Origin: Robertkochia flava
GTDB taxonomy: Bacteria > Bacteroidota > Bacteroidia > Flavobacteriales > Flavobacteriaceae
Length of the DNA stretch: 64,000 bases
Assembly (NCBI RefSeq): GCF_020166515.1
Contig: NZ_JAINZT010000002.1
Span: 806,001-870,000 of the forward strand
Reading direction: 5' to 3'
Made by a program: the position numbers and the translations under genes. This document shows, in pieces, positions 15,886-34,202 of this stretch (the first letter of the stretch is position 1; every line of letters begins with the position of its first letter). A model generated the notes under the pieces. The model was given only the letters and a program-made list of their open reading frames with translations, did no database searches and was not told the origin of the DNA.

Positions 15886-15895
15886 TCGACGAATT

Positions 15896-15977
15896 ACTGG
15901 AGGACAGATTTGACTGATTGCAACCTCGCTAAAAAATGCTAAAGCAGTTGTCGCCTTTCCCATAAGAAACGCGACAA
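15896..15977 (+). promoter_or_regulatory. SAM-II riboswitch upstream of metK
   Basis: The leader contains the SAM-II core order: a short P1 (GAGG 15900-15903 with CCTC 15924-15927), a loop with ATTTGACTGATTGCAA, then GCTAAAAAATGCTAAAGC. A pseudoknot P2 can form between ACTG 15913-15916 and CAGT 15945-15948. GATTTGAC, TTGCAACC and GCTAAA are the conserved SAM-II blocks. A separate hairpin (TTGTCGC 15948-15954 with GCGACAA 15971-15977) overlaps the last base of P2, so it could compete with the ligand-bound fold as an expression platform. Repression of SAM synthetase by SAM is the expected outcome. No intrinsic terminator is seen, so control is probably translational. Confidence 0.82.
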
Positions 15978-16039: not shown

Positions 16040-17326
16040 ATGGCATATTTATTCACATCGGAATCGGTGAGTGAAGGACATCCTGATAAGATAGCTGATC
16101 AGATCAGTGATGCGTTGTTGGATAATTTTCTGGCGTTTGATCCGGAAAGTAAGGTGGCTTGTGAAACCCTTGTGACTACCGGACAGGTTGTGCTGGCCGG
16201 AGAAGTGAAGAGCGATACGTATCTCGATGTGCAGTCTATCGCCCGGGAGGTCATCAATACCATTGGCTATACCAAAGGGGCGTATCAGTTTAGTGGCGAC
16301 AGCTGCGGGGTAATTTCTCTTATTCACGAACAATCGCAGGATATCAACCAGGGTGTGGATCGTGCTACCAAGGAAGAACAAGGGGCAGGAGACCAGGGGA
16401 TGATGTTTGGTTACGCTACCCGGGAAACCGGGAATTACATGCCTTTGGCACTTGATATTTCCCATAAGATCCTTCAGGAGTTGTCGGAGTTAAGGAGGGA
16501 GTCTAAAGAGATCACCTACCTGAGGCCTGATGCAAAGGCACAGGTTACCATTGAATACTCCGAGGAGAACGAGCCGCAGCGCATTGATACCATAGTGATC
16601 TCAACCCAGCACGATCCTTTTGATGAAAATGACGAGGTCATGCTCGCACAAATCAAAAAGGACCTTCTTGAGATCCTTATTCCAAGAGTGAAGGCGCAAT
16701 TGCCTGCCTATGTTCAGGAATTATTTAACGAAGAGATCACCTACCATATCAACCCTACCGGGAAATTCGTGATCGGTGGTCCTCATGGAGATACCGGTTT
16801 AACCGGTCGTAAGATCATTGTGGATACCTATGGAGGAAAGGGTGCTCATGGTGGAGGTGCCTTTAGCGGGAAAGACCCGAGTAAGGTAGACCGAAGTGCA
16901 GCCTATGCCGCCCGCCATGTAGCCAAGAATCTTGTTGCCGCCGGAGTGGCCGATGAGGTGTTGGTTCAGGTAAGTTATGCCATTGGTGTGGTAGAGCCAA
17001 CATCGATCTTTGTGAACACATATGGTACTTCCAAGGTGGCATTATCAGACGGAGCCATTGCTCAGCGGGTACGCGAGATCTTTGATATGCGGCCTTTCGC
17101 CATCGAGGAAAGGTTAAAGCTGAGGGAGCCCATTTACCTGGAAACCGCGGCCTATGGCCATATGGGGAAAGAGCCCAGAACGATAACGAAAACCTTCGAA
17201 TCACCCTACAACGGAAAGGTGGTAAAAGAGGTGGAACTCTTTACCTGGGAAAAACTGGATTATGTTGAAAAGGTAAAGGAGGTATTTACCCCTGAATTTA
17301 AAAAACAACCTGCCGGGAAGGTATAA
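16040..17326 (+). CDS. metK: S-adenosylmethionine synthetase
   Basis: The 428-aa enzyme makes SAM from methionine and ATP. It has [20 protein letters not shown] at the N-terminus, the [10 protein letters not shown] loop, and [20 protein letters not shown] near residues 268-287. It is somewhat longer than the 384-aa E. coli MetK, as usual in Bacteroidetes. It opens the methionine/SAM gene region and is preceded by its own promoter and a SAM-II riboswitch. No terminator is visible in the 44 bp to the next riboswitch, so readthrough into the fusion gene is possible. Confidence 0.97.
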
Positions 17327-17365: not shown

Positions 17366-17534
17366 CTGAAGTTATCAAGAAAGGTGGAGGGATTAGACCC
17401 TGTGATACCTTAGCAACCCTTTTGAATAAAAGAAGGTGCTACATTCTACCTCTGTACAGAGGAAAGATGACCCATTCTACTCTTGTAGTTCCGCTTTTCC
17501 AGTGACTTCAGCATAATACCTCTTTCACAGAGGT
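17366..17534 (+). promoter_or_regulatory. SAM-I (S-box) riboswitch upstream of the metX-thrA fusion
   Basis: The aptamer spans 17371-17471. P1 is GTTATC with GATGAC (17466-17471, one wobble pair). It contains AAGAAAGGTGGAGGGA, TAGACCC, TAGCAACCC, AAGGTGCTACATTCTACC and GAAAGATGA, the S-box blocks in order. P4 is CCTCTG-TA-CAGAGG (17449-17462). Downstream, ACTTCAG (17505-17511) can pair with CTGAAGT (17366-17372) overlapping P1. A second hairpin ACCTCT/AGAGGT (17518-17534) repeats the P4 arms 15 bp before the start codon. These give alternative folds, and no U-tract terminator is present. Confidence 0.9.
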
Positions 17535-17549
17535 CAAATTTGTTTGAAT

Positions 17550-20500
17550 ATGCCGGAATTAAGCGCAGAACTTTTACAACTGCAACTCGTCGATTTTAAA
17601 ACCCTGAACGGTACAGTTCAGGATATCTCCCTGTCTTACCAGGTTTTCGGAAGGCCCTTGCATACCGCACCTGTGGTATTGGTAAATCATGCGCTAACAG
17701 GAAATAGCAATGTCACAGGTCCTGATGGATGGTGGAACGATCTTATTGGTCCGGGGCTCTGCATTGACACGGATCGCTTTACCATACTTTCATTTAATAT
17801 CCCGGGCAACGGCTATGACGGTATTCTTATTGATAATTACAGGGATTTCGTGGCCAGGGACATCGCACGAATATTTCTGGGTGGCCTCGAACAACTTGGA
17901 ATATCTGATCTCTTTGCCCTTATAGGCGGGTCTTTGGGCGGTGGCATCGCCTGGGAAATGGCAGTTTTGTCGCCTGACATTACGCAACATCTTATCCCAG
18001 TTGCTTCCGACTGGAAATCTACAGACTGGCTTATTGCGAACTGCCAGATACAGGAGCGCATCCTGAATAACTCCAATGATCCTGTTCACGATGCCCGTAT
18101 GCATGCCATGCTATGCTACCGTACCCCGGAGTCTTTCAACGAGAGGTTCGGGCGGTCAACCAATGATGAATTACAGGTGTTTAATGTGGAAAGCTGGCTG
18201 CTGCATCACGGGAATAAACTTCAGGAAAGGTTTCAGCTTTCGGCCTATAAGCTGATGAATCAATTGTTAAAGACCATCGATATTACCCGCAACAGGGAGC
18301 CTCATTTCCGGGTGTTGGAAAGCATCAATGCAAATATTCGGATTATCGGGGTGAGCTCAGACCTGTTCTTTACCGCCAGGGAGAACAGAGAAACCTATAA
18401 ACGCCTTGCAGCTTCCAGTGATAAGGTGAGTTACGGGGAGATCAATTCCGTTCATGGGCACGACGCCTTTTTGATCGAAACCGAACAGCTGGCTAACCTT
18501 ATTGGAGAAATATTCAACCCGGAGACTAAAACCAAAAAAATGATCGTACTTAAATTCGGAGGGAAGTCCCTTGCCAATGGGCAGGGCATTGAAAATGTCA
18601 TTAATATTATCGATGCTAAGGTAGCAAACGGAGACCGACTGGCTGTCGTGGTTTCGGCCCGTGGTAAAGCTACCGACCAGCTTGAAAACATGCTGGAGCT
18701 TGCCGCAGCCAAGAAGGCCTACAGGGAAGAATTGGAACGGTTTAAGATCTACCAGCAGGAAGTGTGTCCTGCGGCTTCCCTGCAAGCCCCTTTTGCCAAG
18801 CTCGAGGAATTGCTTGCCGGGGTGAGTCTATTAGGGGATTATAGCGAAAAGGTCAAAGATGAGGTGCTGGCCCAGGGGGAAGTGCTCTCCGGGATCACAG
18901 TCACTGAATTGTTGAAGCAAAAAGGGGTTAATGCCCGGTTTGCTGATACCCGGGAACTGATTAAAACTACGGAGACCTTTGGAAATGCCTTGCCGATAGA
19001 AAAGATATCCCGCCGGAATATCGTCAATCATTTCACCAGTTACAACGGAACCACAGTAAACATCCTGACCGGATTTATAGGGTCCAATGAGAAGAACGAA
19101 ACCACCACCCTTGGACGCAACGGAAGTAATTATACCGCTTCCCTGGTGGCTAATTATCTCGATGCCGGAGAACTTCAGAACTATACCCATGTAGACGGGA
19201 TCTTTACCGCAGACCCGGAATGGGTGCCCGGGGCAACTCCTATAGAGGAGCTTTCCTTTAATGAGGCAAACGAATTGGCAAATTTCGGGGCTACCATTCT
19301 CCACGCCAAAACCATCATTCCGTTGCTGGAGAAGAATATTCCTCTGCGAATCTGTAATACGTTTAATCCGGCAGGAAAAGGTACGCTGATCCGGGCCGAG
19401 TCCGCGTCCGGCCGCCAGGGCATTAAGAGCTTGTCCGTACTCGATAATGTGGCCCTGGTGAACCTCGAAGGAAGGGGGCTGCTCGGGAAATCGGGAGTCG
19501 ACGCGAGGATCTTTCGCGCTCTTGGAAATCAGAATATCAGTGTGAGTATCATTTCCCAGGGCTCTTCAGAGCGGGGCATTGGCCTGGTGGTTGATGCCCG
19601 TCGGGCTACAGATGCAGTGATTGCGCTGGAAAAAGAATTTGAGAACGATTTTTATTCCCGTGATGTAAATCGTATTTCCGTTAATGACGAGGTGGGCGTG
19701 ATCTCTGTAGTAGGTCAGGACCTTTCTAATTTTCATAAACCCTATGCAACCCTGATCCGAAATAAGGTCGAGCCGCTGTTGCTCAATAATACGGTTACAG
19801 GAAAGAATGTGAGTCTTGTACTGCGAAAAAAGGACCTCCACAGGGCGGTAAACGTTATTCACGGGGAGATATTTGGAGTTTCCAGGGCTGTGAATATCGC
19901 AATTTTCGGGCACGGTACGGTTGGGGGTGTGCTTATCGACCAGATCCTCCAGTCTGCCGGAAATATTGAGGATCGTAAAAAACTGAAACTTAATATTTTT
20001 GCGGTGGCGAACTCCAGGAAGGTATTGCTGGACGCCTCTGGAATAGACAGGAACTGGCAATCCGGGCTGGAGGCGTCGCAGGAGCAGAGTTCTGTCGATG
20101 CCGTGATAAGCTATGCAGAAAAGCACCACCTGGGGAATCTCATTGCGGTCGATAATACAGCCAGCCAGGACCTGGTTGGGCAATATGGGACGCTGGTAAG
20201 TGCGGGATTTGACCTGGTCTCCTCCAACAAGATCGCCAATACCATGCCCTATGAGCGATACCGCTCCCTGAGAACCGCATTGGAGCATAATCAGAAGCAA
20301 TACCTTTATGAAACCAATGTAGGAGCAGGACTGCCCCTGATTGATACCATCAGGTTGCTGCACCTTTCCGGAGAAAACATCACCCGGATAAGGGGGGTGT
20401 TTTCCGGAACGCTTAGTTACCTGTTTAATCGTTTCTCGGTGGAAGACCGTAAGTTTAGTGAGATCCTCAGGAGTGCATACGATAATGGGTATACTGAACC

Positions 20501-20966
20501 CGACCCAAGGGAAGACCTCAATGGTAATGATGTTGGGAGAAAACTTCTGATCCTGGCCCGGGAACTCGACCTGAAGAACGAAATGCAGGATGTCAATATT
20601 CAAAACCTGGTTCCGGAATCCCTGCAGGGATTGGCGCTTGAAGATTTTCTGGAACATCTGGAAGATTTCGATGAGCACTTCGAGAACCTGAAAAGAAATC
20701 AGAAGCCCGGGCATGTGTTAAGGTATACCGGCGACCTCCACGGCGACCTTCAGCAGGAGAAAGGGATACTGGATGTGAACCTGGTATCTGTTCCGGAACA
20801 CTCTGCACTCGGGCAGGTAAGAGGTGCTGATTCTATTTTTGAGATCTATACCGATTCCTATGGAGAGCATCCAGTGGTGATCCAGGGTGCCGGTGCTGGA
20901 GCAGCTGTTACCGCCAGGGGCGTCTTCGGAGATATCCTTAAAATAAGCGAACGCAACTATTTATAA
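17550..20966 (+). CDS. Trifunctional fusion: homoserine O-acyltransferase - aspartokinase - homoserine dehydrogenase
   Basis: The 1138-aa protein joins three enzymes. Residues 1-330 are a MetX-like alpha/beta hydrolase with nucleophile Ser128 in GGSLGGG, Asp271 in SSDLFF and His304 in HGHDAFL, so the triad looks intact. Residues 331-770 are aspartokinase (KFGGKSLANG, TTLGRNGSNYTA) with two ACT-like regulatory domains. Residues 778-1138 are homoserine dehydrogenase (GHGTVGG at 787, TNVGAGLPLIDTI, GYTEPDPREDLNGNDVGRK). It would carry out three steps of the pathway: aspartate to aspartyl phosphate, semialdehyde to homoserine, and homoserine to its O-acyl ester. Aspartate-semialdehyde dehydrogenase is not included. 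The ATG at 17550 was chosen over a TTG two codons earlier. It lies under a SAM-I riboswitch. Confidence 0.93.
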   Translation: MPELSAELLQLQLVDFKTLNGTVQDISLSYQVFGRPLHTAPVVLVNHALTGNSNVTGPDGWWNDLIGPGLCIDTDRFTILSFNIPGNGYDGILIDNYRDFVARDIARIFLGGLEQLGISDLFALIGGSLGGGIAWEMAVLSPDITQHLIPVASDWKSTDWLIANCQIQERILNNSNDPVHDARMHAMLCYRTPESFNERFGRSTNDELQVFNVESWLLHHGNKLQERFQLSAYKLMNQLLKTIDITRNREPHFRVLESINANIRIIGVSSDLFFTARENRETYKRLAASSDKVSYGEINSVHGHDAFLIETEQLANLIGEIFNPETKTKKMIVLKFGGKSLANGQGIENVINIIDAKVANGDRLAVVVSARGKATDQLENMLELAAAKKAYREELERFKIYQQEVCPAASLQAPFAKLEELLAGVSLLGDYSEKVKDEVLAQGEVLSGITVTELLKQKGVNARFADTRELIKTTETFGNALPIEKISRRNIVNHFTSYNGTTVNILTGFIGSNEKNETTTLGRNGSNYTASLVANYLDAGELQNYTHVDGIFTADPEWVPGATPIEELSFNEANELANFGATILHAKTIIPLLEKNIPLRICNTFNPAGKGTLIRAESASGRQGIKSLSVLDNVALVNLEGRGLLGKSGVDARIFRALGNQNISVSIISQGSSERGIGLVVDARRATDAVIALEKEFENDFYSRDVNRISVNDEVGVISVVGQDLSNFHKPYATLIRNKVEPLLLNNTVTGKNVSLVLRKKDLHRAVNVIHGEIFGVSRAVNIAIFGHGTVGGVLIDQILQSAGNIEDRKKLKLNIFAVANSRKVLLDASGIDRNWQSGLEASQEQSSVDAVISYAEKHHLGNLIAVDNTASQDLVGQYGTLVSAGFDLVSSNKIANTMPYERYRSLRTALEHNQKQYLYETNVGAGLPLIDTIRLLHLSGENITRIRGVFSGTLSYLFNRFSVEDRKFSEILRSAYDNGYTEPDPREDLNGNDVGRKLLILARELDLKNEMQDVNIQNLVPESLQGLALEDFLEHLEDFDEHFENLKRNQKPGHVLRYTGDLHGDLQQEKGILDVNLVSVPEHSALGQVRGADSIFEIYTDSYGEHPVVIQGAGAGAAVTARGVFGDILKISERNYL

Positions 20967-22291: not shown

Positions 22292-22317
22292 CAGCCTTGT
22301 TCATGACATACTGATAG

Positions 22318-22440
22318 GTTATCAAGAAAGGTGAAGGGACAGGACCCATTGAAGCCTTGGCAACCCTCCGTTTTTTGGGAGAAGGTGCTACATTCTGCCT
22401 GAAAAAAGGAAAGATAACACAGGTTTAACTTCCTTTTTTT
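22318..22440 (+). promoter_or_regulatory. SAM-I (S-box) riboswitch upstream of metH
   Basis: The aptamer has a perfect P1, GTTATC 22318-22323 with GATAAC 22413-22418, and the S-box blocks CAAGAAAGGTGAAGGGA, GGACCCATTGAAGCC, GGCAACCC, AAGGTGCTACATTCTGCC and GGAAAGAT. Immediately after, CTTCC plus seven T (22429-22440) can pair with AAAAAAGGAA.G (22402-22413). This alternative hairpin takes bases from P1 and P4 and ends in a U-run. It looks like a ligand-dependent platform, though its polarity is not obvious from sequence alone. Confidence 0.92.
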
Positions 22441-30078: not shown

Positions 30079-30108
30079 TTTGCAGTTTCATATTAATTTT
30101 TACCTTAG
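30079..30108 (+). promoter_or_regulatory. Promoter for the aromatic operon leader
   Basis: TTTG at 30079-30082, an 18-bp spacer and TACCTTAG at 30101-30108 (one mismatch to TAnnTTTG). Transcription would start near 30115, about 15 bp before the leader-peptide ATG. Confidence 0.5.
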
Positions 30109-30129
30109 CAGGGTATAAGTGATACACAT

Positions 30130-30207
30130 ATGAACGCAACTCGCTATATCTGGAACTTCTTTTATTTCTTCTTTTATTTTACAAAGGAAGCAAAGGGGTC
30201 TGTATAG
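30130..30207 (+). CDS. Aromatic-rich leader peptide of the phe/tyr/aro operon, 25 aa
   Basis: An ATG-initiated frame encodes 25 residues that begin MNATRYIWNFFYFFFYFT. Residues 10-17 are eight consecutive Phe/Tyr codons (six Phe, two Tyr), with Tyr6 and Trp8 just before. It is followed by a strong terminator and then pheA, the layout of the phe leader in enteric bacteria. A ribosome stalled on the aromatic run would cover the first arm (30168-30175) of a hairpin that pairs with AAAGGAAG at 30183-30190. The peptide is too short and biased to be a normal protein. I propose it senses charged tRNA-Phe/Tyr. Confidence 0.85.
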   Translation: MNATRYIWNFFYFFFYFTKEAKGSV

Positions 30208-30234
30208 CTTATTGAAAACAATAATATAAGATGT

Positions 30235-30264
30235 AAAGTCCCGGAAATCCGGGACTTTTTTTTT
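30235..30264 (+). terminator. Attenuator terminator before pheA
   Basis: A 10-bp perfect stem (AAAGTCCCGG/CCGGGACTTT, AAAT loop) with nine T at 30256-30264, ending 3 bp before the pheA ATG and 28 bp after the leader-peptide stop. A candidate antiterminator uses GGGGT (30195-30199) with GTCCC (30238-30242), enclosing TTATTG/CAATAA (30209-30224). That pairing is weak and needs folding support. Confidence 0.88.
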
Positions 30265-30267
30265 AGT

Positions 30268-31092
30268 ATGAATACAAAAATCGCCATTCAGGGTATCAAA
30301 GGATCTTTTCACCATCAGGTAGCACTGGAATATTTCGGGGATGCTGAGGTGGAAGAATGTCTCTCTTTTGACGAGGTTATTGACGCTGTGCTCGGGAAAA
30401 GGGCAGACGTGGCTGTCATGGCTATAGAAAATTCCATTGCCGGATCCATCATTCCCAATTATGCCCTGATCGATGCTAATGGGTTCCATATTATCGGAGA
30501 ACATTACTTGAACATCCATCACAACCTGATGGCGCTCGGAGGCCAGCGAATCAGTGATATTCGCGAGGTGTATTCGCATCCGATGGCCCTTCTTCAGTGT
30601 AAGCAGTTTTTCAGGCAGTATCCGCATATCAAACTGGTGGAAGATGCCGATACGGCAGAGGTGGCCCGGCGTATTCATGAAAAGAAATTAAAGGGAGTTG
30701 GCGCTATAGCCGGAAGGGTAGCTGCAACGCTTTATGATTTGGAAATCCTTGCTGAGGAGATCCAGACCATCAAGAATAATGAGACCCGTTTCGTTATTGT
30801 TCAACCTACCAATTCGGTGATCCCTGAAGATCGGATCAACAAGGCTTCCATGAAGTTTGAACTCGATCATAAAAGAGGCAGTCTGGCTACGGTACTGAAC
30901 GTGATGAGCGACTGTAAACTGAACATGACAAAAATTCAATCCCTGCCAAAAATCGAAACGCCCTGGAAATACGCCTTCTTTGTCGATGTGACCTTTGAGT
31001 CGTACCAGCATTTCGAAAAGGCCAAAGCCATTCTGAAGATCATGGCTGAGGAATTCAGGATTCACGGGGAGTATATAAATGCAAAACGATGA
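30268..31092 (+). CDS. pheA: Prephenate dehydratase
   Basis: The 274-aa enzyme turns prephenate into phenylpyruvate. It has the N-terminal IAIQGIKGSFHHQVALEYF, AIENSIAGSI and the catalytic-region NNETRFVIV. A C-terminal ACT domain (KFELDHKRGSLATVLNVMSD) normally binds Phe for feedback. It has no chorismate mutase domain; that activity is fused to the DAHP synthase at the end of this operon. The gene starts 3 bp after the attenuator T-run and overlaps the aminotransferase by 4 bp. Confidence 0.95.
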   Translation: MNTKIAIQGIKGSFHHQVALEYFGDAEVEECLSFDEVIDAVLGKRADVAVMAIENSIAGSIIPNYALIDANGFHIIGEHYLNIHHNLMALGGQRISDIREVYSHPMALLQCKQFFRQYPHIKLVEDADTAEVARRIHEKKLKGVGAIAGRVAATLYDLEILAEEIQTIKNNETRFVIVQPTNSVIPEDRINKASMKFELDHKRGSLATVLNVMSDCKLNMTKIQSLPKIETPWKYAFFVDVTFESYQHFEKAKAILKIMAEEFRIHGEYINAKR

Positions 31093-32255
31093 TTAAACAA
31101 GCCCGCAGATTAAACTCGGTGGAAGAATATTATTTTTCCAGGAAACTTGCAGAAGTAAGGTCGTTGATGGCCCAGGGAAAACCTGTGATCAATATTGGAA
31201 TAGGTAGTCCTGACCTGGCTCCTTCAGATGAGGTGTTGCAAGCGCTTACCTCTGCTGTGTATGACGATAATGCCCACCAGTATCAGAGCTACCAGGGACT
31301 TCCGGAGCTGAGAAAGGCAGCTTCCGGGTTTTACAAGCGGTTTTTCCAGGTAGATCTCGATCCGGACAAGGAAATATTACCCCTCATGGGATCCAAGGAA
31401 GGGATCATGCACGTTTCCATGGCATTTCTGGATCCGGGAGACGAAGTACTGATCCCCAATCCCGGCTACCCGACGTATACCTCAGTAACCAGACTGGTGG
31501 AAGCAGTTCCCGTTTACTATGACCTGAAGGAAGAAAATAACTGGTTGCCGGATCTGGAAGCATTGGAAAAGAAAGACCTGAGTAAGGTTAAGCTGATGTG
31601 GCTAAGCTATCCGCACATGCCTACCGGGGCAAAGGCTGCAAAGGCCGATTTTAAACGCCTTGTGGATTTTGCACGAAAGCATGAGATCCTGCTGGTTAAT
31701 GATAATCCGTACAGTTTTGTGCTTAACCAGGAGCCGATGAGTATCCTCGAGGTAGCAGGAGCAGAAGAGATTGCCCTGGAGTTGAATTCCCTGAGCAAGA
31801 GCTTTAATATGGCCGGTTGGCGGGTAGGTTTTCTGATGGGGAATGCCGGTTTTCTAAGTGCGGTTTTAAAGGTGAAGAGCAATATGGACAGCGGAATGTT
31901 CTACGGAATTCAGAAAGGAGCTGTGAAAGCCCTGGAACTTTCTTCCCAGTGGTATGCCGATCTTAACAGGATCTACAAGAATCGGAGGGAACTGGTGTTT
32001 GAGATCGCCGACAGCCTCGGGTGCACCTACAACCGGGATACCGTTGGAATGTTCGTTTGGGCCAGGATCCCTGAAGGAAGTCAGAATTCAGAGGCCTTTG
32101 CAGACGAAATTCTTTACGGGAAAAATATATTTATTACCCCCGGAACCGTTTTTGGTTCTAATGGAGAAGGGTATGTGAGATTTTCGTTGTGCGTCTCCGA
32201 GCACGCGCTTCAGGAAGCCCTGAGGCGATGCACCAAAAAAAATATGGCCATATGA
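31089..32255 (+). CDS. PLP-dependent aminotransferase (class I), probably for aromatic amino acids
   Basis: The 388-aa fold-type I aminotransferase has INIGIGSPDLAPSDEVL, YQSYQGLPELRKAASGFY, PNPGYPTYTSV, NDNPYSF and the PLP lysine in SLSKSFNMAGWRVGF. It lies between pheA and tyrA with 4-bp overlaps on both sides. Transamination of phenylpyruvate and hydroxyphenylpyruvate to Phe and Tyr is therefore the likely job. Sequence alone does not separate aromatic from prephenate or aspartate preference. Confidence 0.88.
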   Translation: MIKQARRLNSVEEYYFSRKLAEVRSLMAQGKPVINIGIGSPDLAPSDEVLQALTSAVYDDNAHQYQSYQGLPELRKAASGFYKRFFQVDLDPDKEILPLMGSKEGIMHVSMAFLDPGDEVLIPNPGYPTYTSVTRLVEAVPVYYDLKEENNWLPDLEALEKKDLSKVKLMWLSYPHMPTGAKAAKADFKRLVDFARKHEILLVNDNPYSFVLNQEPMSILEVAGAEEIALELNSLSKSFNMAGWRVGFLMGNAGFLSAVLKVKSNMDSGMFYGIQKGAVKALELSSQWYADLNRIYKNRRELVFEIADSLGCTYNRDTVGMFVWARIPEGSQNSEAFADEILYGKNIFITPGTVFGSNGEGYVRFSLCVSEHALQEALRRCTKKNMAI

Positions 32256-33106
32256 AGGTAGTTGTAATGGGCTTGGGATTGATCGGGGGCTCTATCGCCC
32301 TTGATCTGAAACAAACTGGGAAGTTTTCGATCTACGGCCTGGATGCCAGTGAAGCACATCTTAAGAAGGCTCTCGACCTCGGTCTTATTGACCAGGCCGC
32401 TGATGAGCAGGTGCTCAAAAATGCAGACGTCGTAATCCTGGCCATACCGGTAAATGCTGCCCTGACTGTGCTACCCGGTATACTCGATCAGGTATCCGAT
32501 ACCACCCTGGTGATGGATGTGGGATCCACCAAAACGCTGGTTTGTCAACAGCTGGAAACCCATGACAAACGCAGGAATTTCCTTGCTACCCACCCCATTG
32601 CAGGAACAGAATTTTCCGGGCCGTCGGCTGCGATGAAAGGATTGTTCAGGGGGAAGACCAATATCGTATGTGAGGTGGAAAAAACGGCCTTTAAATTACA
32701 GGAGCGGGCCATGGTTATTTTTGAAGAATTGGGAATGAGAATCCGGTATATGGATCCCAAGGCCCACGATAAGCATATCGCCTATGTTTCCCACCTCTCA
32801 CATATAAGTTCTTTTATGCTGGGGAAAACAGTGATACAGGAGGAAAAAAATGAACGGGATATCTTCGATATGGCGGGCAGTGGATTTGAAAGCACGGTTC
32901 GTCTTGCAAAGAGTTCCCCCGATATGTGGACGCCCATATTCAAACACAACCGGGAAAATGTTCTTGCAACCCTGGAGGGGTATATTGAGAATCTCCGGCA
33001 GTTTAAAACGTTTCTGGAACAGGAAAACTATGAGGCGATTTACCACGAAATGGAAAAAACAAACCGAATAAAAGACATACTAAAAGGAATAACCATAAAC
33101 ACTTAA
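32252..33106 (+). CDS. tyrA: Prephenate dehydrogenase
   Basis: The 284-aa enzyme starts at the ATG at 32252, overlapping the aminotransferase stop by 4 bp; an upstream in-frame extension is rejected because the NAD-binding VVVMGLGLIGGSIALDLK should be at the N-terminus. ATHPIAGTEFSGPSAA and the His-containing HDKHIAYVSHLSHI match TyrA. It oxidatively decarboxylates prephenate to hydroxyphenylpyruvate. There is no C-terminal ACT domain. It branches toward Tyr in the same operon that makes Phe. Confidence 0.93.
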   Translation: MKVVVMGLGLIGGSIALDLKQTGKFSIYGLDASEAHLKKALDLGLIDQAADEQVLKNADVVILAIPVNAALTVLPGILDQVSDTTLVMDVGSTKTLVCQQLETHDKRRNFLATHPIAGTEFSGPSAAMKGLFRGKTNIVCEVEKTAFKLQERAMVIFEELGMRIRYMDPKAHDKHIAYVSHLSHISSFMLGKTVIQEEKNERDIFDMAGSGFESTVRLAKSSPDMWTPIFKHNRENVLATLEGYIENLRQFKTFLEQENYEAIYHEMEKTNRIKDILKGITINT

Positions 33107-33119
33107 TAGTACATTAAGC

Positions 33120-34202
33120 ATGAAAAATACACCAGAACTTAGAACCTGGCTTGACGATCTTAAACTGGAGCACCCCGTCGTGATCGCAGGCCCCTGTAGC
33201 GCAGAAACCGAAGATCAGGTATTGAGCATTGCACATCAGTTAAAGGATACGGATGTGAGCTATCTCAGGGCAGGAATATGGAAGCCCAGAACCCGGCCGG
33301 GTAATTTTGAAGGCGTTGGAGCGATAGGGTTAAAATGGCTAAAAAAGGCCAAGGAAGAAACCGGGTTAAAGATCGCGACCGAGGTAGCCAACAGAACCCA
33401 TGTTGAAATGGCCCTGGAGCACGATGTGGATATGCTGTGGATCGGAGCCCGTTCTACCGTAAGTCCGTTTATTGTACAGGAGATCGCGGATGCCCTCGAG
33501 GGAACTGATAAGTTCGTTTTAATTAAGAATCCCGTCAATCCCGATCTTTCGCTCTGGCTTGGCGGTATCGAGAGACTGTATAAGAGCAATATTAAAAACC
33601 TGGGGGTGATTCATCGCGGATTCTCCTCCTATGAAAAAACAAAATACAGGAATATCCCCGAATGGCAGATCGCTATTGAACTGCAAAACAGGTTCCCCGA
33701 TCTTCCTCTGATCTGTGATCCTTCCCATATTACCGGGAAGCGGGATATGATCTTCGACGTTTCTCAAACGGCACTTGATCTGAATTATGACGGACTTATG
33801 ATCGAGACGCATATGGATCCTGATAATGCATGGAGTGATGCCGCACAGCAGGTAACTCCCGAATCCCTGGTGCAGATCATGAAAGATCTCAAGATCAGAA
33901 AGGAGACCGACCCGGAAGGAGAGTATACCACCAAGCTCGGGAACCTCAGGGCACAGATCGATGTGATCGATAATACCCTTATCGACTTAATGGGGAAACG
34001 GATGAAGGTGGCCGATGAGATCGGACAACTTAAAAAAGACAGAAACGTGGCTGTTCTGCAAACCAAAAGGTGGAACGAGATCCTCGGCAAGATGATCCTT
34101 GAAGGAGAGCATCACGGACTCAGCGAAGAATTCGTACTGCGCATCTTTAAGGCGATTCACCAGGAGTCCATTAACCACCAGGAGAAGATCCTGAAGAAAT
34201 AA
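33120..34202 (+). CDS. Bifunctional DAHP synthase - chorismate mutase
   Basis: The 360-aa protein has a type I-beta DAHP synthase barrel at residues 1-265 (VIAGPCSAETEDQVL, AGIWKPRTRPGNFEG, CDPSHITGKRDM, IETHMDPDNAWSDAAQQ). A C-terminal AroQ chorismate mutase follows (LRAQIDVIDNTLIDLMGKRM). The domain order is the reverse of the Bacillus enzyme, as known in Bacteroidetes. It catalyses both the first shikimate-pathway step and the chorismate-to-prephenate step, supplying pheA and tyrA upstream. The mutase domain may also sense prephenate or chorismate for feedback. A strong terminator ends the operon. Confidence 0.94.
   Translation: MKNTPELRTWLDDLKLEHPVVIAGPCSAETEDQVLSIAHQLKDTDVSYLRAGIWKPRTRPGNFEGVGAIGLKWLKKAKEETGLKIATEVANRTHVEMALEHDVDMLWIGARSTVSPFIVQEIADALEGTDKFVLIKNPVNPDLSLWLGGIERLYKSNIKNLGVIHRGFSSYEKTKYRNIPEWQIAIELQNRFPDLPLICDPSHITGKRDMIFDVSQTALDLNYDGLMIETHMDPDNAWSDAAQQVTPESLVQIMKDLKIRKETDPEGEYTTKLGNLRAQIDVIDNTLIDLMGKRMKVADEIGQLKKDRNVAVLQTKRWNEILGKMILEGEHHGLSEEFVLRIFKAIHQESINHQEKILKK

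Follow-up and report, generated by a model that had tools for sequence, protein, structure and literature searches.

The question raised by this locus is whether the short, aromatic-rich open reading frame (ORF) that precedes pheA in Robertkochia flava is the leader peptide of a transcription attenuator, and how far such a control extends among related bacteria. As detailed below, the leader sequences point to a classical ribosome-mediated transcription attenuator, a reading to which we give a probability of about 0.9. In the window (the whole stretch of 64,000 nucleotides analysed), the ORF is followed by four genes of aromatic amino-acid biosynthesis that overlap or lie 13 nt apart (Table 1). 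A single transcript is thus probable, and pheA, the aminotransferase gene, tyrA and the DAHP synthase-chorismate mutase gene are probably co-transcribed. The divergent neighbour of the leader, on the opposite strand, is an ABC transporter ATPase according to Pfam. Among named proteins, those closest to the window's pheA product are 83-84% identical to it.

Table 1. Coordinates within the window of the pheA leader features and of the genes that follow them
Feature	Positions	Strand	Remarks
Candidate promoter element TTTG, presumably at -33	30079-30082	+	TTG-type element before the -7-like motif
Candidate -7 box TACCTTAG	30101-30108	+	RNA would then start near 30113
Leader peptide ORF MNATRYIWNFFYFFFYFTKEAKGSV	30130-30207	+	25 codons, of which 10-17 form the Phe/Tyr run; conserved
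Eight Phe/Tyr control codons, doubling as region 1 (5' arm of the predicted protector hairpin)	30157-30180	+	
Purine stretch AAAGGAAG, partner of the Phe codons in the predicted protector hairpin 1:2	30183-30190	+	MFE fold
Region 2, candidate antiterminator 5' arm, includes the leader stop codon	30195-30212	+	Duplex with region 3; matched changes in relatives
Region 3, candidate antiterminator 3' arm, overlaps the terminator 5' arm	30227-30243	+	
Intrinsic terminator, 10-bp stem and T tract	30235-30264	+	9/9 consensus pairs with two-sided changes
pheA, prephenate dehydratase	30268-31092	+	PF00800, E 3e-57
Class I/II aminotransferase	31089-32255	+	PF00155
tyrA, prephenate dehydrogenase	32252-33106	+	PF02153 and PF20463; NF006307 above its cut-off
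DAHP synthase-chorismate mutase fusion	33120-34202	+	PF00793 and PF01817

The leader peptide and its distribution

The original prediction described a frame of 25 codons with eight Phe/Tyr codons at positions 10 to 17, in addition to Tyr6 and Trp8, and this is what the sequence contains. It had also proposed comparing the region upstream of pheA between relatives, where the aromatic codons, the terminator and covarying alternative pairs were all found. For this comparison, the leader score was defined as the maximum number of Phe, Tyr and Trp per ten codons in a short ORF starting with ATG or GTG at most 450 nt from pheA. The window's leader scores 9, and of 81 loci (80 from named genome contigs, plus that of the window) 79 have a leader scoring at least 6 before pheA. 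The two exceptions are a contig that starts 150 nt upstream of pheA (L017) and a locus with its leader at -646 (L019). Among 68 further loci, counted after the removal of 7 duplicates, 54 score at least 5 and 51 at least 6; L148, counted among the 14 misses, repeats the L019 leader. The Gelidibacter leader-terminator unit lies 285 nt (L012) or 646 nt (L019, L148) upstream of pheA.

The distribution extends to other orders of the class, in which a leader scoring at least 5 precedes pheA in 20 of 29 loci (18 score at least 6; 14 family labels) and is absent from nine. The leader is also absent from three loci of the same order (L082, L084 and L085) and from one of the same family (L099). In other classes of the phylum, none of 29 loci scores above 4, these being the best 29 of 172 matching genomes and not a random sample. 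When about 1.7 to 2.2 kb upstream of 12 leaderless operons were scanned, no leader was detected beyond one doubtful match with 5 aromatics in the L082 region.

This recurrence bears on the possibility that the terminator upstream of pheA is constitutive, with partial read-through, and that the aromatic ORF is a chance product of T-rich DNA. In its favor, the region is rich in AT and the control codons in T; among 745 dinucleotide shuffles (149 loci, five each), 92 score at least 5 and 22 at least 6, a score of 7 being reached once and 8 never. Yet, the frequency of 79 in 81 for scores of at least 6 contrasts with 4 among 536 other genes of these loci, a control from which pheA with alternative starts was left out and in which 24 genes score at least 5 and none scores 8. 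Moreover, aromatic codons reach 7.7 per ten in frame 0, which was picked for its density, and 2.0 and 2.8 in the two alternative frames. Considering also that the antiterminator arms co-vary between lineages and that other amino-acid operons have leaders of their own amino acid (see below), the chance explanation keeps only a very small probability.

The leaders analysed hereafter come from 133 loci that represent 131 distinct sequences and 122 distinct peptides, a few species having been drawn twice; the choice of ORF is uncertain in one of them (L135). On average they contain 5.2 Phe, 3.4 Tyr and 0.6 Trp, with at least two Tyr in 131 leaders and at least one Trp in 82. The leader ORF is enriched in codons for the product of the operon, as expected of an attenuator, and the charging of Phe- and Tyr-tRNA would be the signal that is read. 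Certain leader peptides stall ribosomes by means of the peptide itself, and an arrest specific to the nascent peptide, of the TnaC or Erm type, could replace the scarcity of charged tRNA as the cause of stalling. Nevertheless, the order of Phe, Tyr and Trp differs between lineages, and in four loci (L038, L055, L070 and L080) the ORF is shorter than in close relatives while the downstream RNA is still similar, which makes such an arrest extremely improbable here.

The presence of the leader is associated with the content of the operon. A match to DAHP synthase-chorismate mutase, scored by tblastn and possibly due to either domain, was found downstream in all 111 assessable leader loci (92/92 plus 19/20 with enough sequence, the twentieth contig stopping early) and in 3 of 13 leaderless loci (2/12 plus L155), kinship being ignored in this comparison. 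As for tyrosine, the idea that the Tyr codons track tyrA was suggested by four operons without a tyrA match, with a mean of 1.75 Tyr against 3.49 in 88 operons, and was dropped given that eight further operons of this kind from other families had 2 to 6 Tyr. Tyr codons are thus still present in the leaders of 12 operons without a tyrA match.

Terminator, candidate antiterminator and predicted protector hairpin

An intrinsic terminator separates the leader ORF from the first gene, as in a classical attenuator. Its stem (30235-30258) has 10 bp closed by a 4-nt loop, and nine T, three of them inside the stem, finish 3 nt upstream of the pheA ATG (30268). The original prediction had the terminator in this place and of this size, but gave 28 nt between the leader stop codon and the stem, a distance that is in fact 27 nt. 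All 133 leaders are followed by a terminator-like hairpin and its T-rich tail, although the scan is permissive, keeps the best candidate and requires the T-rich tail. Among 266 mononucleotide shuffles, 32 contained any terminator-like hairpin and none scored as high as 95% of the real hairpins do. All nine consensus pairs of the terminator change on both sides across 55 non-redundant loci.

The hairpin could alternatively act on translation by masking the start of pheA, and it does end within 19 nt of that start in about half of the loci. However, it ends at least 47 nt upstream of pheA in about 30% of them, and the T-rich tail behind every one of the 133 chosen hairpins, even if required by the scan, is not matched by the shuffles. 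Translational control in place of transcription termination thus seems very unlikely.

A weak antiterminator had also been suspected in the window, formed by GGGGT (30195-30199) and GTCCC (30238-30242) around TTATTG (30209-30214) and CAATAA (30219-30224). All four motifs are present, and the suspicion is borne out by matched changes of the two arms in relatives. The arms agree lineage by lineage: 14 GTCTCG arms pair with GAGAC (11) or GAGGC (3); 17 GTCCCG arms face GGG, in the form of GGGAC in 10 and of GGGGT in the window; ATCCTG pairs with AGGAT, and GCCTTG with AAGGC. The core in the window is weaker than in many relatives, with 5 of 6 pairs of which two are G-U.

RNAalifold did not recover a consensus antiterminator, apparently owing to the MAFFT alignment, in which region 2 is misplaced in several distant loci; from the truncated alignment it returned no structure. 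For this reason, the pairing of each region 2 with its own region 3 was compared to its pairing with foreign arms. At least five of six Watson-Crick pairs are formed with the own arm in 46 of 55 non-redundant loci, against 28% for foreign arms; when G-U is allowed, all six pairs are formed in 26 of 55, against 18% for foreign and 7% for shuffled arms. The looser count of at least five pairs with G-U allowed (54 of 55, against 75% for foreign arms) says little. These six-pair tests were devised after the results of a plain cross test, mostly between close relatives, in which the difference was modest (17.1 for own, 14.6 for foreign and 12.3 for shuffled arms), and of the duplex energies between regions 2 and 3, which average -13.8 for own, -10.0 for foreign and -6.6 for shuffled arms. 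Own arms rank within the best tenth of duplex energies in 60 of 133 loci. The candidate antiterminator would exclude the terminator and would lie under a ribosome at the stop codon, both being characteristic of attenuators.

The remaining element of a classical attenuator, the protector hairpin, is predicted in the window too. As had been noticed, a hairpin can form over the aromatic codons, CTTCTTTT (30168-30175) being complementary to AAAGGAAG (30183-30190) with one G-U. In the 133 loci, when no ribosome is present, the aromatic codons form a mean of 17.2 pairs with the following 30 nt, against 10.3 once these 30 nt are shuffled, and the own pairing exceeds the shuffled one (one shuffle each) in 120. 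The fold of the leader RNA lies 4.1 SD below those of its dinucleotide shuffles.

Ribosome position and initiation of the leader

The geometry of the leader is consistent with a switch operated by the ribosome. The end of the aromatic run precedes region 2 by a median of 12 nt (7 to 15 once the five extremes on each side are trimmed), and the end of the stop codon falls at a median of 19 nt past the start of region 2 (-2 to 29). From this spacing, region 2 should be accessible while a ribosome is stalled in the run and hidden once the ribosome has arrived at the stop codon. Folding was modelled with a masked ribosome footprint of 13 nt beyond the A-site start, which is an assumed value; in 125 of 133 loci, the antiterminator probability exceeds 0.5 for a ribosome in the run and drops below 0.3 for one at the stop codon, the values for the window being 0.60 and 0.09. 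However, the masking itself produces part of the effect at the stop codon, spacers that have been shuffled still give antiterminator-like pairing above 0.5 in 53 of 133 loci, and equilibrium favors the terminator despite a stalled ribosome (its probability exceeds 0.5 in 116 to 124 of 133 loci, depending on the stall position). Consequently, the model indicates only that a ribosome-dependent switch between antiterminator and terminator is possible and, because the terminator is favored at equilibrium despite the stall, this switch must be kinetic.

The following mechanism may then be proposed for the classical attenuator that we favor. With ample charged Phe- and Tyr-tRNA, the ribosome would reach the stop codon and mask region 2, so that region 3 would pair with region 4 and transcription would terminate immediately upstream of pheA. 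If either tRNA became scarce, the ribosome would stall on the run of Phe and Tyr codons, some 12 nt ahead of region 2, and regions 2 and 3 would pair before region 4 was synthesised; this antiterminator would allow read-through into pheA and the aminotransferase, tyrA and DAHP synthase-chorismate mutase genes. If the leader were not translated, the Phe codons would pair around region 2 and termination would be favored.

A promoter-like motif begins 29 nt upstream of the leader ORF in the window. Of the 133 leaders, 112 have the motif TAnnTT[TA]G no more than 60 nt ahead of their start (9% in shuffles). When 80 nt are scanned, 113 leaders have a -7-like motif, and in 88 of these a TTG-type element stands 15 to 23 nt before it, mostly 17 to 18 (16% in shuffles). 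The sigma-A box of Flavobacterium psychrophilum is reported as TAnnTTTG at -12 to -5 (PMC9723704), a position that would place the RNA 5' end about 17 nt upstream of the leader ATG in the window. A Shine-Dalgarno-like sequence precedes the leader in only 1 of 133 cases, and the mRNAs of this bacterial class have been described as devoid of classical Shine-Dalgarno sites (PMC7366714, PMC9723704).

Companion leaders, known systems and significance

Leaders corresponding to other amino acids precede other operons, including in the same genome. Upstream of hisG, in relatives and in R. flava itself, at least three His per ten codons were found in 15 of 15 loci and HHH in 13, against 12 and 1 of the 536 control genes; the hisG leader of R. 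flava (L191) is MHHHHSHPRTQAR and has no Rfam match at cut-off. Upstream of trpE, WW was found in all 15 loci evaluated (one further locus was too short) and WWW in 13, against 9 and 0 of the control genes, and the R. flava leader (L209), MFRNKAHNWWWNSLRQTS, matches Bacteroid-trp with 50.7 bits for a cut-off of 49. Five weaker trpE-domain matches had no Trp-rich leader, but their starts are poorly placed and they were not used as a control. The thrA leader of R. flava (L258) has a Thr/Ile score of 10 per ten codons, when 1 of 536 control genes reaches at least 7; of nine thrA loci, six score at least 7, two score 5 to 6 and one has no leader. Short ORFs rich in Ile, Val and Leu before ilvD-like genes of several genomes (L267, L269 and L274) could be ilv leaders but are not retained as such, as 105 of the 536 controls also pass. 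The own-amino-acid leaders for His, Trp and Thr make the pheA leader one of a set within this genome.

Other RNA regulators occur in the window. One SAM-II and two SAM-I riboswitches, that is two classes in a single cluster, lie within 7 kb on the forward strand (15894-15952, 17369-17473 and 22316-22420). The genes behind them include a fusion of 1140 aa (17544-20966) that matches homoserine dehydrogenase, a gene at 16040 that we take to be SAM synthetase-like, and genes from 22512 on that are presumably methionine synthase-like. Before pheA, no match to a curated T-box or riboswitch family was found in the window.

Among the known systems, the enteric pheL shares with the leader studied here a Phe-rich leader peptide and a terminator just upstream of pheA. 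The two differ in several respects: the leaders of the window's type have many Tyr and often Trp codons, whereas enteric pheL is, to our knowledge, without Tyr; the operon adds an aminotransferase, tyrA and DAHP synthase-chorismate mutase; and a Shine-Dalgarno-like site is nearly always missing. The corresponding Rfam model (RF01859, Phe_leader) gives a full-length covariance match to the window's leader of 39.2 bits (E 2.5e-5 when 301 bases are searched), below its cut-off of 55 bits. Bacteroid-trp (RF01692; Weinberg 2010, PMC2864571) is likewise a leader-type cis-regulator of Bacteroidetes, but it has Trp codons and precedes trpE, and at its cut-off it matches neither the pheA leader of the window nor those of 11 relatives.

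The original prediction knew of no description of this control in flavobacteria, but it had not gone undescribed there. A 2021 study of F. psychrophilum (PMC9723704) mentions clues of leader-peptide attenuation before amino-acid operons and names structured 5' elements of pheA and hisG that are conserved in other genera and lack Rfam matches; this pheA element belongs to the same gene and bacterial family as the window's leader. As far as its main text goes, that study gives for pheA no peptide, antiterminator or range beyond Flavobacteriaceae, details that its supplement may contain. A map of Bacteroides thetaiotaomicron mentions leader-peptide-like sORFs, pheA being absent from its main text, and the attenuator survey of Lopatovskaya (2010), cited by Korolev (2016), may already list pheA of Bacteroidetes. 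Given the F. psychrophilum element, Bacteroid-trp and the sub-threshold Phe_leader match, the pheA leader is well supported and partly described before, and its mechanism is ordinary and not new in kind.

What is added here is the class-wide reach of the leader, its detailed anatomy, the mixed Phe/Tyr code and the association with an operon-encoded DAHP synthase. A broader reading would be that of one ancient attenuator common to Bacteroidia, with a leader start devoid of a Shine-Dalgarno site, that reads Phe-, Tyr- and often Trp-tRNA as a sensor of total aromatics and controls the entry into the shikimate pathway through DAHP synthase-chorismate mutase; we put it forward tentatively, at slightly less than even odds. 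The link between the leader and an operon-borne DAHP synthase-chorismate mutase suggests what sets the flux into aromatic amino acids in these bacteria, and the leader offers a detailed example of Yanofsky-type attenuation, amenable to testing, throughout a bacterial class whose mRNAs lack classical Shine-Dalgarno sites.
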